Origin: Gammaproteobacteria bacterium
GTDB taxonomy: Bacteria > Pseudomonadota > Gammaproteobacteria > Eutrophobiales > Eutrophobiaceae
DNA length: 42,479 nucleotides
Direction: 5' to 3'
Assembly (NCBI GenBank): GCA_021773245.1
Contig: JAJFKK010000044.1
Location: forward strand, 1 to 42,479
Shown: positions 6,064 through 17,132 of the stretch, piece after piece
Numbering within the stretch: the first letter of the stretch is position 1
How the letters are laid out: every line of letters starts with the position of its first letter
Position numbers and translations under genes: made by a program
The notes under the pieces: generated by a model
What the model saw: the letters and a program-made list of their open reading frames with translations, nothing else
Database searches by the model: none
What the model was told of the DNA's origin: nothing

Positions 6064-7632
6064 ATGAATAAAATTAATTTCGACGATGATTCAGCCGTAT
6101 TAATAATTGGTTCTGGTGCTGGTGGCGGTACCTTGGCAAATGAGTTATGCCAAAAAGGTATCAAGGTTATTTTACTTGAAGCCGGTAAACATTATTCCAT
6201 ACAAGACTTCCATAACAACGAATGGGAAGCATTCAGTCAACTTGCCTGGCTCGATAAGCGAACAACTTCAGGCGACTGGCGAGTAGCACAAGATTTTCCT
6301 AATTTACCCGCATGGATATGCAAAACAGTTGGTGGCACAACAACACACTGGGCTGGCGCGAGTTTACGAATTCAGGATTATGAATTCAAGGCTAAGACGG
6401 TTTACGGTGAAATTGAAAATGCAAACCTACTCGATTGGCCTTTAGCTCTTGAAGATTTAGCTGATTATTATGATAAGGCCGAAGACAAGATGGGTGTGAC
6501 TCGCACTCATGGCATACCTGGTTTACCTGGAAATAATAATTTCAAAGTAATGCATGCAGGTGCGACGAAACTGGGTTACAAAAAAGTTAATACTGGTCAT
6601 ATGGCAATTAACAGCCGGCCTCGTGATGGTCGTGCATCATGTATGCAACTGGGTTTTTGTTTCCAAGGCTGTAAATCAGGCGCTAAATGGTCAACGCTTT
6701 ATACAGAAATTCCCGCTGCTGAGGCGACAGGTAATCTTGATCTCAGAACTGAAACTCATGTGTTACGAATAGAGCATAATGAATCAGGTAAAGTAAGTGC
6801 TGTGGAATACGTCGATAAAGACGGAAAACACCATCTACAAAAAGCGAAGATCATTTGTGTAGCAGGTAACTCAATAGAAACTCCTCGCTTGTTATTAAAT
6901 TCACAGACATCACAATATCCAGACGGTTTGGCTAATTCATCGGGACAGGTTGGCCGCAATTATATGCGTCATACAACCGGTTCCATTTTTGCCATGTTTG
7001 ATAAGCCGGTTAATATGCATAGAGGCACTACCATGGCTGGTATCATTCAAGATGAAAGTGGTCACGATCCAAAACGCGGTTTTGCAGGAGGCTACGAACT
7101 AGAAACATTAGCGTTAGGCTTGCCATTTATGGCAGCATTTCTTAACCCTGGTGCATGGGGAAAAGATTTTACGCACGCACTAGAAAACTACAAGCATCTT
7201 GCAGGTATGTGGATCGTTGGTGAAGACATGCCTCAAGAAAAGAATGGCGTCACATTACATGCCGATGAAAAAGATCAGTATGGAATGCCTGTACCTAATG
7301 TTCATTATGATGATCATGCCAACGATATAGCAATGAGAAACCATGCTTACAAACAAGGCATGGCGGTTTACGATGCCGTTAATGCGACTAATATTTATGA
7401 GGTTCCTCCCTACCCTTCAACACATAATCTTGGAACTTGCAGAATGAGCAAACGTTCTTCTGATGGTGTCTGCAACAAATGGGGACAAACACATGATATT
7501 GATAATTTATTTATATCGGACGGCAGTCAGTTTACAACGGGCGCAGCAGAAAACCCGACTTTGACTATTGTTACCCTGGCTATAAGACAAGCAGACTATA
7601 TTGCTGATCAACTTAACAGCAGAGAATTATAA
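6064..7632 (+). CDS. GMC-family FAD oxidoreductase (gluconate/glucose dehydrogenase-type catalytic subunit)
   Basis: 522-residue flavoprotein that should oxidise an alcohol or sugar in the periplasm. Seen: FAD Rossmann motif GSGAGGG (about residues 16-22) with LLEAG at the second strand; VGGTTTHWAGASLR, the GMC substrate/FAD loop; and the C-terminal THNLGTCRM and DGSQFTTGAAENPTLTI, with the catalytic His region. Three cysteines at 193, 199 and 203 (C-x5-C-x3-C) lie where FAD-glucose dehydrogenases hold a [3Fe-4S] cluster. The partner Tat subunit is immediately upstream. The third, cytochrome c, subunit of such complexes is absent from the neighbourhood. Substrate cannot be read from the sequence; a sugar, polyol or hydroxy-acid precursor is likely. 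Confidence 0.88.
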   Translation: MNKINFDDDSAVLIIGSGAGGGTLANELCQKGIKVILLEAGKHYSIQDFHNNEWEAFSQLAWLDKRTTSGDWRVAQDFPNLPAWICKTVGGTTTHWAGASLRIQDYEFKAKTVYGEIENANLLDWPLALEDLADYYDKAEDKMGVTRTHGIPGLPGNNNFKVMHAGATKLGYKKVNTGHMAINSRPRDGRASCMQLGFCFQGCKSGAKWSTLYTEIPAAEATGNLDLRTETHVLRIEHNESGKVSAVEYVDKDGKHHLQKAKIICVAGNSIETPRLLLNSQTSQYPDGLANSSGQVGRNYMRHTTGSIFAMFDKPVNMHRGTTMAGIIQDESGHDPKRGFAGGYELETLALGLPFMAAFLNPGAWGKDFTHALENYKHLAGMWIVGEDMPQEKNGVTLHADEKDQYGMPVPNVHYDDHANDIAMRNHAYKQGMAVYDAVNATNIYEVPPYPSTHNLGTCRMSKRSSDGVCNKWGQTHDIDNLFISDGSQFTTGAAENPTLTIVTLAIRQADYIADQLNSREL

Positions 7633-14892: not shown

Positions 14893-16107
14893 TTAACGCA
14901 GAATTAAAATATCTTGGCCTCCATTACCTTTTTGAGAAGCCCTTCTTGCAATATACATATCGTTGATATTATCTCCATTGTAATCTGCCTCGTTTATATC
15001 AAAAACATTACCAGACTTACTTGACTCCTCAATATTGTTCAAACTGTCCAGATAAAATTTTCCGTCTCCATTATTTATATATGCATATAAAGTACCTGCA
15101 CCTTGTTTAAATATAATGGATGAGCCAGTTAGCACATCCAGATCACCATCATTGTCCAAATCAATAAATATTGCAGTAAAATTACTTTCCATGTCTTGCG
15201 GAAATTGGCTATTGTTAACATCTGTAAAAAAACCATTACTATTGTTTATCAATAACCGATCAGCAGGGTTTACTTTCATGGAAAACTGTACGTTAGCGTA
15301 ATATAAATCTATATCGCCATCATTATCGATGTCGCCAACAATTACCTCTCTACTTTCATCAATGGTTTTCGGTAGTCTATTTGAAGTCTCATCCTTAAAA
15401 TAACCTTTTCCATTATTAATATATATTTTATTTTGACCTTCATTTGCTTCCAGTAAATCGAGATCACCATCATTATCAACGTCAGCAAGATGTAAGTCTT
15501 GTGTCACATCGTCATTATCTGAATCCATTCTTTCCTGAGTCACATCAATAAAAGCACCCTCTCCATTATTTAATAAGATCTTATTTGCTCCATCGTTACC
15601 GATGATAATATCCATATAGCCATCATTATTAACATCAAAAACCACAACTGAATTCGATATGCCATCTACGGGAAGATTGTTGCTTGCATCAACAAAACTG
15701 CCATCACCACTATTAAAATAAAGTTCATTTTTTTTATCATCTTCAGAGACGAAAACAATATCTAGTTCACCATCATTATTAAAGTCTGCAACCCCAATAT
15801 CTTCACTGTCATGAGAATGACCAAAGCGGATAATGTCATCAAACTTTCCATTTCCATCATTTAGCAACACAATATTTTGACCGAATTCAATAGCCAGAAT
15901 AATATCGATATCACCATCCTTATCTATATCATGAGAAGCGGCATCCATTGTTTTACTTTTTACATCTAATTGCGCATGAGTAATTGTTGCCTTGGCATTA
16001 ATAACTGCTGATGAATAGACGGGTTCTGCAATTACAGAATTAATTTTAATCGGAAATAGCAGTACGACTAAGATCACTGTCGTTAATTTTTTAGTCTTTT
16101 TAACCAT
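14893..16107 (-). CDS. Secreted FG-GAP/VCBS-repeat protein
   Basis: 404 residues with an N-terminal signal (basic KKTKK, hydrophobic core to about residue 27, cut near IAEP). The rest is a row of about seven repeats of the FG-GAP/VCBS type, each with a calcium-binding loop D-x-D-x-D-G (DIDKDGDIDI, DFNNDGELDI, DVNNDGYMDI, DVDNDGDLDL, DIDNDGDIDL, DLDNDGDLDV, DYNGDNINDM) followed by a strand such as ILLNNGEGAFIDV. Such arrays fold as integrin-like propellers and act outside the cytoplasm in adhesion or ligand binding. No catalytic domain or anchor is seen. Monocistronic in appearance. Confidence 0.88.
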   Translation of the reverse strand: MVKKTKKLTTVILVVLLFPIKINSVIAEPVYSSAVINAKATITHAQLDVKSKTMDAASHDIDKDGDIDIILAIEFGQNIVLLNDGNGKFDDIIRFGHSHDSEDIGVADFNNDGELDIVFVSEDDKKNELYFNSGDGSFVDASNNLPVDGISNSVVVFDVNNDGYMDIIIGNDGANKILLNNGEGAFIDVTQERMDSDNDDVTQDLHLADVDNDGDLDLLEANEGQNKIYINNGKGYFKDETSNRLPKTIDESREVIVGDIDNDGDIDLYYANVQFSMKVNPADRLLINNSNGFFTDVNNSQFPQDMESNFTAIFIDLDNDGDLDVLTGSSIIFKQGAGTLYAYINNGDGKFYLDSLNNIEESSKSGNVFDINEADYNGDNINDMYIARRASQKGNGGQDILILR

Positions 16108-16169: not shown

Positions 16170-16913
16170 TCATTGATTTAATTGATAATATTCTTCTATA
16201 GTTTGATTAATAATATAATCATCAAGTAGTAGAGGTAAATCGTTATTTACCCGTTCAAAGAATAGTAATGTTTTTTCATTGAGTCTTGCATAAAATTCTT
16301 TAGTCTCAATAAACTGAACTGCCTTATCAAGATAAGTCCCTCCGAGAAGATGCCGTAATTCATGTTGAAAGATTACCGCAGTAAAACCATTTAATCGGCC
16401 GCGTTGTATTTCTCCCTTGGCATTAAATGCTTCATACTCAATCCATTCGTAACTGGCAACATTGCCCAACTTCTCACCACTGGCACTAAGGCAACCATGC
16501 CAAAAGTTTTTTCTCTGTTTTGAAACCTTGGTTATTTTTGGATTAATAAAGACTTGAAAAGGAACAACATCTAGTTCTTCATGCCATAGCGAATGACTAT
16601 TTGCTTCGATTAAAAATAATTGAATATTCTTATTTACCTGATTTGCAGCAATACCTACTCCGTGCCAAAAATGCATCGCTGAACGTAATTCTTGAACAAA
16701 CCCATTAAGCTCCTGAGTATCAAATTCTTGCTTTTCAATTTTTCGGGAAGGCAAATAAAGTGTATTATTTATTCTTTCTTCTTTTTTAAATGTATGTTGA
16801 ACGAGACTGAAACCTTTTTCGGGTATCAGTAAAGAATCGATTTTTTCTGGTTTTATGTAACTGCATCCGCTAGAACAGATGAGAAGTAAAATAACTAAAA
16901 CATGAACCTTCAT
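16170..16913 (-). CDS. Peptide deformylase-like lipoprotein
   Basis: 247-residue protein with all three peptide deformylase motifs: GVGIAANQ at 85-92 (motif 1), GCLS with the metal-ligand Cys141 (motif 2), and QHELRH with H184, E185 and H188 (motif 3; the usual Asp of HExDH is Arg). The N-terminus is a lipoprotein-type signal ending SSGC with Cys17, so it should be exported and lipidated. Ordinary deformylases are cytoplasmic, ~170 residues, and sit next to fmt; this one has neither property, plus a ~60-residue N-terminal region and a C-terminal helical tail. Likely a periplasmic metallohydrolase with a deformylase fold; the substrate is unknown. Confidence 0.8.
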   Translation of the reverse strand: MKVHVLVILLLICSSGCSYIKPEKIDSLLIPEKGFSLVQHTFKKEERINNTLYLPSRKIEKQEFDTQELNGFVQELRSAMHFWHGVGIAANQVNKNIQLFLIEANSHSLWHEELDVVPFQVFINPKITKVSKQRKNFWHGCLSASGEKLGNVASYEWIEYEAFNAKGEIQRGRLNGFTAVIFQHELRHLLGGTYLDKAVQFIETKEFYARLNEKTLLFFERVNNDLPLLLDDYIINQTIEEYYQLNQ

Positions 16914-17132
16914 ACTTCAACCAAAGCCCTTATAATATTATTGATTAACATGCTGTAAAAAATAGATGAGCATTTATAGAATTATATCCCGGCTGCCCAG
17001 GTAATTACTCCTAACAAATGTCACAAAAATAAATCTTCATCAAATGTTACATTAGTATGTCCCATTACCGTAAACCATACTCTGCTCCATCATATTCAGA
17101 AACCATATTAACCTGCGATGATTTTCAAATTA

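Follow-up and report, generated by a model that had tools for sequence, protein, structure and literature searches.

Peptide deformylases (PDFs) are regarded as cytoplasmic, ribosome-associated and essential enzymes, and as drug targets. A stretch of 42,479 nucleotides of gammaproteobacterial DNA (the window) encodes a PDF homologue with an apparent lipoprotein signal, which raises the question of whether deformylase chemistry could operate outside the cytoplasm and, if so, on which substrate. The gene and the parts of its product that define the fold are:

16170..16913, stop codon included, minus strand: gene for the PDF homologue, 247 aa (ORF, PF01327, full-length homologue)
16317..16760, minus strand: PDF domain, residues 52-199 (Pfam, AlphaFold model, Foldseek)
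16173..16316, minus strand: C-terminal region, residues 200-247, with the subfamily-conserved P227 and Y233 (PLLLDDYII) (invariant columns, pLDDT)

The 247-aa open reading frame starts with ATG; upstream of this codon it extends by one codon only (248 aa), and the other in-frame start codons are TTG54, ATG80 and TTG149 only. Thus, the N-terminal signal is not an artefact of a start set too early. Compared with a homologue from the same family as the window (G030/L033), which is 62% identical along its entire length, dN is 0.27 and dS is 1.47 over the whole gene, indicating that the sequence is constrained; for residues 1-50, the values are 0.47 and 1.03, respectively. The GC content of the gene (0.335) is slightly below the window mean (0.373), and that of its neighbours is similar to that of the gene.

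Residues 52-199 score 102.3 bits against PF01327 (gathering cut-off 22.8), which places the product in the superfamily, while the scores fall short of the cut-offs for the NCBIfam deformylase equivalog TIGR00079 (81.8 vs 103.95 bits) and for the subfamily model NF001159 (101.5 vs 125 bits). The AlphaFold2 model of the 247-aa protein has a mean pLDDT of 81.8 and a pTM of 0.80, with pLDDT values of 86-94 per 10-residue block from residue 201 onward, and Foldseek matches it best to crystal structures of PDFs (E 7.3e-14, TM by target 0.84). In total, the product is predicted to adopt the deformylase fold.

The active site is described by four features:

16638..16661, minus strand: motif I GVGIAANQ, residues 85-92; Q92 corresponds to E. 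coli Q50 (alignment)
16485..16499, minus strand: motif II HGCLS, residues 139-143; C141 kept, E88 replaced by H139 (alignment)
16452..16454, minus strand: Ser154 where Arg102 would stand (all 15 subfamily rows have T or S, all 61 others R)
16350..16364, minus strand: motif III HELRH, residues 184-188; H184, H188 and E185 kept, D135 replaced by R187 (alignment)

We aligned 76 PDFs, i.e. 15 members of the window protein's subfamily and 61 other PDFs, together with E. coli Def, which served as numbering guide. The 61 other PDFs came in part from a search with the window protein and in part from the top Pfam scorers, the latter part being tilted to ordinary PDFs; the selection pattern did not demand E88, R102 or D135. 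The metal ligands (C141, H184 and H188), the catalytic Glu (E185) and the oxyanion Gln (Q92) are intact in the window protein and invariant in 15/15 subfamily members of the tree. The initial annotation had described a PDF homologue with all metal ligands, and the three ligands and the Pfam score bear this out. By contrast, all 61 other PDFs keep E88, R102 and D135, none of which occurs in any of the 15 subfamily members. In these 15 members, position 88 is always H, position 102 is T or S, position 135 is N, R, K, W or A, and F86, W87, A93 and F130 (E. coli numbering) are invariant.

The three deformylase motifs had also been taken as kept. This holds for motif I, in which GVGIAANQ fits the pattern G-phi-G-phi-A-A-x-Q, but not for motif II, which reads HGCLS rather than EGCxS, nor for classical motif III (QHExDHLxG), which reads QHELRHLLG; the latter does fit the updated pattern HEXXH-phi-x-G (PMC12690207). 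HGCLS and the loss of Arg102 had been overlooked. The HELRH sequence, in turn, had been singled out as departing from HExDH, and R187 does replace the D; it is less remarkable than thought because HEXXH, and not HExDH, exceeds the 95% conservation cut-off in a 2025 survey, and motif III without the D is tolerated among accessory PDFs (PMC12690207). Since E88, R102 and D135 are all replaced, deformylase activity is not assured; our literature search found no text on contacts among these three residues.

These replacements bear on two alternatives. One, possible if rather doubtful, is a neofunctionalised hydrolase that has kept PDF chemistry but turned to a substrate other than formyl-Met: the concerted loss of three residues found in every other PDF of the alignment, together with the new invariant stretches FWHGCLSA and IFQHE and the invariant F, W, A and F, would mark a different substrate pocket. 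All catalytic residues are nevertheless intact, and PDFs with changed motifs can stay active deformylases (type 3 PDFs of T. brucei, cited in PMC12690207). The other, which we regard as highly improbable, is a PDF-fold protein that has lost catalysis and serves to bind formylated peptides; the loss of three otherwise invariant charged residues would fit, but the metal ligands, catalytic Glu and oxyanion Gln would be needless in such a protein and are invariant in 15/15 members.

The features that concern export are:

16866..16913, minus strand: signal sequence, residues 1-16, MKVHVLVILLLICSSG (hydrophobicity 3.28; signal in 8 clade members)
16863..16865, minus strand: Cys17, predicted lipidated residue (sequence)

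The N terminus has the hallmarks of a lipoprotein, i.e. a positively charged n-region (K2) and a hydrophobic h-region (Kyte-Doolittle 3.28 over 11 residues) followed by Cys17. Among the 47 window ORFs of at least 100 aa, which served as background, a hydrophobic stretch with a Cys occurs in four including the PDF homologue, whose value is the highest. Moreover, signal and terminal Cys are present in 8/8 members of the window's branch of the subfamily, from both Gammaproteobacteria and Bacteroidota, while most of the surrounding columns vary. The strict lipobox, for which we used a pattern like that of PROSITE PS51257, is passed by 2/7 branch members tested; the Cys is preceded by G in the window protein and by N, K, K, S, K and A in the other members, i.e. 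by K or N in four. The window protein itself fails because Cys13 sits at -4. The lipoprotein signal that had been proposed at Cys17 is borne out as a hydrophobic stretch with a conserved Cys and not as a strict lipobox, and so it is in most of the homologues, a search for which had been suggested; the case for a lipoprotein is built on how the homologues conserve this Cys. Export as a lipoprotein is, at the level of sequence, well supported, and Ser at +2 suggests the outer membrane by the Lol rule.

Residues 17-28 have pLDDT values below 50 (AlphaFold2), as expected for a linker behind an anchor. The extra N-terminal region noticed in the initial annotation is real: between the Cys and the PDF domain, the homologues share a partly conserved IPE.GF..VQH, which argues that translation truly begins at the ATG.

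We consider it improbable to a marked degree that the protein is an ordinary accessory cytoplasmic PDF whose hydrophobic N-terminal segment is not used as a signal. Such a protein would be in line with the failure of the strict lipobox and with the Francisella relatives, which lack any signal; it is difficult to reconcile with the hydrophobic stretch and subsequent Cys that all eight clade members from two phyla share, as read from the sequences, and with the top hydrophobicity among the four such window ORFs.

Subfamily members were searched for in ~1,770 genomes plus other collections, using whole-genome and contig searches. In a maximum-likelihood tree, which did not include reference type 3 PDF sequences, the subfamily is monophyletic (support 100/100), and the branch leading to it measures 2.08 changes per column; this long stem is in line with the neofunctionalised hydrolase considered above. 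The tree and the 15-row counts comprise 15 members and exclude the later-found L116. The window's branch has seven tree members (support 99/94) and consists, once L116 is counted, of eight: the window protein, one same-family relative and six from Bacteroidota. Its sister branch contains Francisella and Glo_16 members (support 100/88). The Francisella members (L037, L040-L042 and L046-L048) have no signal and are about 200 aa long, and the Glo_16 member, from a gammaproteobacterium, has a hydrophobic N terminus with no Cys behind it. Because the signal-less Francisella branch shares the altered active site, the latter is not a consequence of export, which also accords with neofunctionalisation; export is a property of one branch, and the two are separate traits. 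Orthologues without a signal had been named in the initial annotation as a finding that would refute the exported-lipoprotein reading; they exist in this sister branch, while the closest clade has the signal in 8/8 members.

The carriers are a MAG from the window's family, a Chitinophaga pinensis MAG, a Flavobacteriales MAG, a Persicobacter megaplasmid, Glo_16 and Francisella, with three further carriers (G501, G831 and G885) reached through Bacteroidota centres. Counting in each case the genome on which the search was centred, the subfamily is present in 2/53 genomes of the window's own family and 5/369 of its class, in 8/33 genomes of the order of Francisella (one copy being in two pieces), in 3/395 of the class of the Chitinophaga MAG, in 2/114 of the family of the Flavobacteriales MAG, and in 1/395 of a phylum sample, namely the search centre itself. 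The subfamily is therefore rare and patchy across two phyla. This patchy presence, together with the plasmid copy, points to horizontal transfer. ORFs near the Persicobacter megaplasmid copy look transposase-like.

Several observations were made alongside these searches. The copy in two pieces is L050 and L068/L070 (G439, Francisella genus). L116 (3177-3938, minus strand, in G885) has a TTG start codon; its motif II region reads HGCLRKKKKKRGN owing to 17 consecutive A in the DNA, which reflect either an assembly error or a slipped copy. The Glo_16 genome (G451) has five PF01327 genes, and its L071 (1342-2031, plus strand) encodes a PDF with EGCLS, HEIDH and a long hydrophobic N-terminal segment. 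A phage origin is not indicated: viral contigs yielded two PDFs only, 24-25% identical and with HEIDH, and phage PDFs were ordinary and less than 60% identical. Streptomyces plasmid matches that extended into the N-terminal region have EGCLS and HETDH and were rejected. Finally, 577 Klebsiella plasmid records contain a PDF-like match to the window protein, which fits published plasmid-borne PDFs.

The window genome encodes a second PDF, on contig C157, with 171.8 bits, EGCLS and HEIDH; the gene downstream of it, overlapping by four bases, looks fmt-like in sequence. The window gene is therefore an accessory copy. A higher-scoring ordinary PDF was likewise present in every other carrier genome checked, so that cytoplasmic deformylation is covered. 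Accessory PDFs on mobile elements that confer inhibitor resistance are documented (PMC12690207), and the patchy distribution and the megaplasmid copy near transposase-like ORFs would fit mobility. It is nonetheless unlikely that the protein is an envelope relative which, by binding or tolerating environmental, actinonin-like PDF inhibitors, shields the essential cytoplasmic enzyme: known resistance PDFs take over from the inhibited cytoplasmic enzyme, a role closed to a lipoprotein, and the Arg97-to-Tyr change that marks resistance does not match the basic residue which most members have at position 97 or close to it.

The surroundings of the gene comprise:

16932..16959, minus strand: promoter-like TTTACA-16-TATTAT, 5' of the ATG (consensus match alone, 10/12)
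14893-16107, minus strand: FG-GAP repeat protein, 404 aa, apparently carrying a signal sequence; its gene follows the PDF gene, on the strand they share, after a gap of 62 bases
L034 3433-4943, L035 3455-4965 and L079 6413-7291, 5' of the PDF gene: GNAT acetyltransferase (PF18014) loci

Promoter-like sites are common in the region (18 found vs 12.9 expected from shuffles). The G030 homologue has different neighbours, and the FG-GAP/PDF gene pair is therefore not conserved. In the three Bacteroidota loci, the GNAT gene lies directly upstream of the PDF gene, and in two of them it is preceded by a gene for a 216-aa protein without a Pfam match. Protein searches detected no relative of this acetyltransferase in the window, G448, Francisella, Glo_16 and G831 genomes tested; we therefore rejected it as a required partner. 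In L080, a gene of the OmdA/YdeI 'bacteriocin-protection' family (6478-7053, minus strand) stops 3 bases before the start of the PDF homologue.

SRP prevents deformylation of signal-bearing nascent chains, N-out membrane proteins have been proposed to retain the formyl group (PMC5454389), and exported proteins generally escape deformylation (PMC12690207). Given that formyl peptides exist in the envelope, they would be the target pool of an envelope deformylase. The pool outside the cytoplasm also feeds innate immune recognition and peptide salvage. The initial annotation had named extracytoplasmic peptides, formylated or acylated, as possible targets, and this is plausible.

At about even confidence, we propose that the protein is an active envelope-anchored metallo-amidase of the PDF type for extracytoplasmic peptides that bear an N-formyl or similar N-acyl group. 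The signal would direct the protein through Sec, signal peptidase II would cleave before Cys17, and the lipidated Cys17 would anchor the domain in a membrane, probably the outer membrane facing the periplasm. There, C141, H184 and H188 would hold the metal, E185 would act as general base, Q92 and the backbone of L142 would form the oxyanion hole, and an N-formyl or other short N-acyl group would be hydrolysed from extracytoplasmic peptides. Candidate substrates are membrane or exported proteins, and fragments of them, whose formyl-Met termini the cytoplasmic PDF has missed or, alternatively, formylated peptides from neighbours. The enzyme would thus probably act in the cell envelope on peptides inaccessible to the normal enzyme. 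PDF homology across the whole domain, the invariant catalytic residues, the conserved signal with Cys, the constraint on the sequence, the ordinary PDF in the carrier genomes checked and the presence of formylated substrates in the envelope support an envelope amidase; the strict lipobox failures, the loss of E88, R102 and D135, the TIGR00079 shortfall and the signal-less Francisella relatives argue against it. We put forward, more tentatively, that the subfamily is a horizontally spread, lipid-anchored clade that would apply deformylase chemistry in the envelope to something other than nascent formyl-Met proteins, in a rewired active site where E88, R102 and D135 were replaced together.

PDF homology as such is ordinary and accessory PDFs are common; what is new is a clade that combines an altered motif II with a signal plus Cys. 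In the openly licensed PMC literature, we found no paper on an exported, secreted, periplasmic or extracellular bacterial PDF. If a deformylase relative were indeed fixed in the envelope, the extracytoplasmic formyl-peptide pool would have its own processing enzyme, and the question would arise of how PDF chemistry proceeds in the absence of E88, R102 and D135. The FWHGCLSA signature makes members of the subfamily easy to find.

Compared with canonical Def (PF01327), the window protein shares the fold, metal ligands, catalytic Glu, oxyanion Gln and motif I; it differs in the N-terminal signal with Cys, E88H, R102S and D135R, the extended N- and C-terminal parts, and a gene that is not beside an fmt-like gene. 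Organelle-targeted eukaryotic PDFs also carry a targeting sequence, and in this they resemble the window protein; their destination is a compartment with formylated proteins of its own making, whereas the periplasm makes none. Accessory PDFs occur in about half of bacterial species (PMC12690207). Among these, V. cholerae Def2 and integron-encoded PDFs (PMC12690207) are likewise second, horizontally spread and patchy PDFs, but they replace the cytoplasmic enzyme and support growth, whereas the window protein carries a signal and a changed motif II and lacks the Arg97-to-Tyr signature. Type 3 PDFs, i.e. the accessory copies of S. aureus and S. pneumoniae and those of trypanosomatid mitochondria, are defined by substitutions in conserved motif residues (PMC5591237), and E88H and D135R would make the window protein a type 3 PDF by this definition; the window subfamily differs in that it keeps all metal and catalytic residues and in that its substitutions are fixed across the clade. 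The Francisella members of the subfamily share clade and altered active site with the window protein and differ from it in size and in the missing signal.
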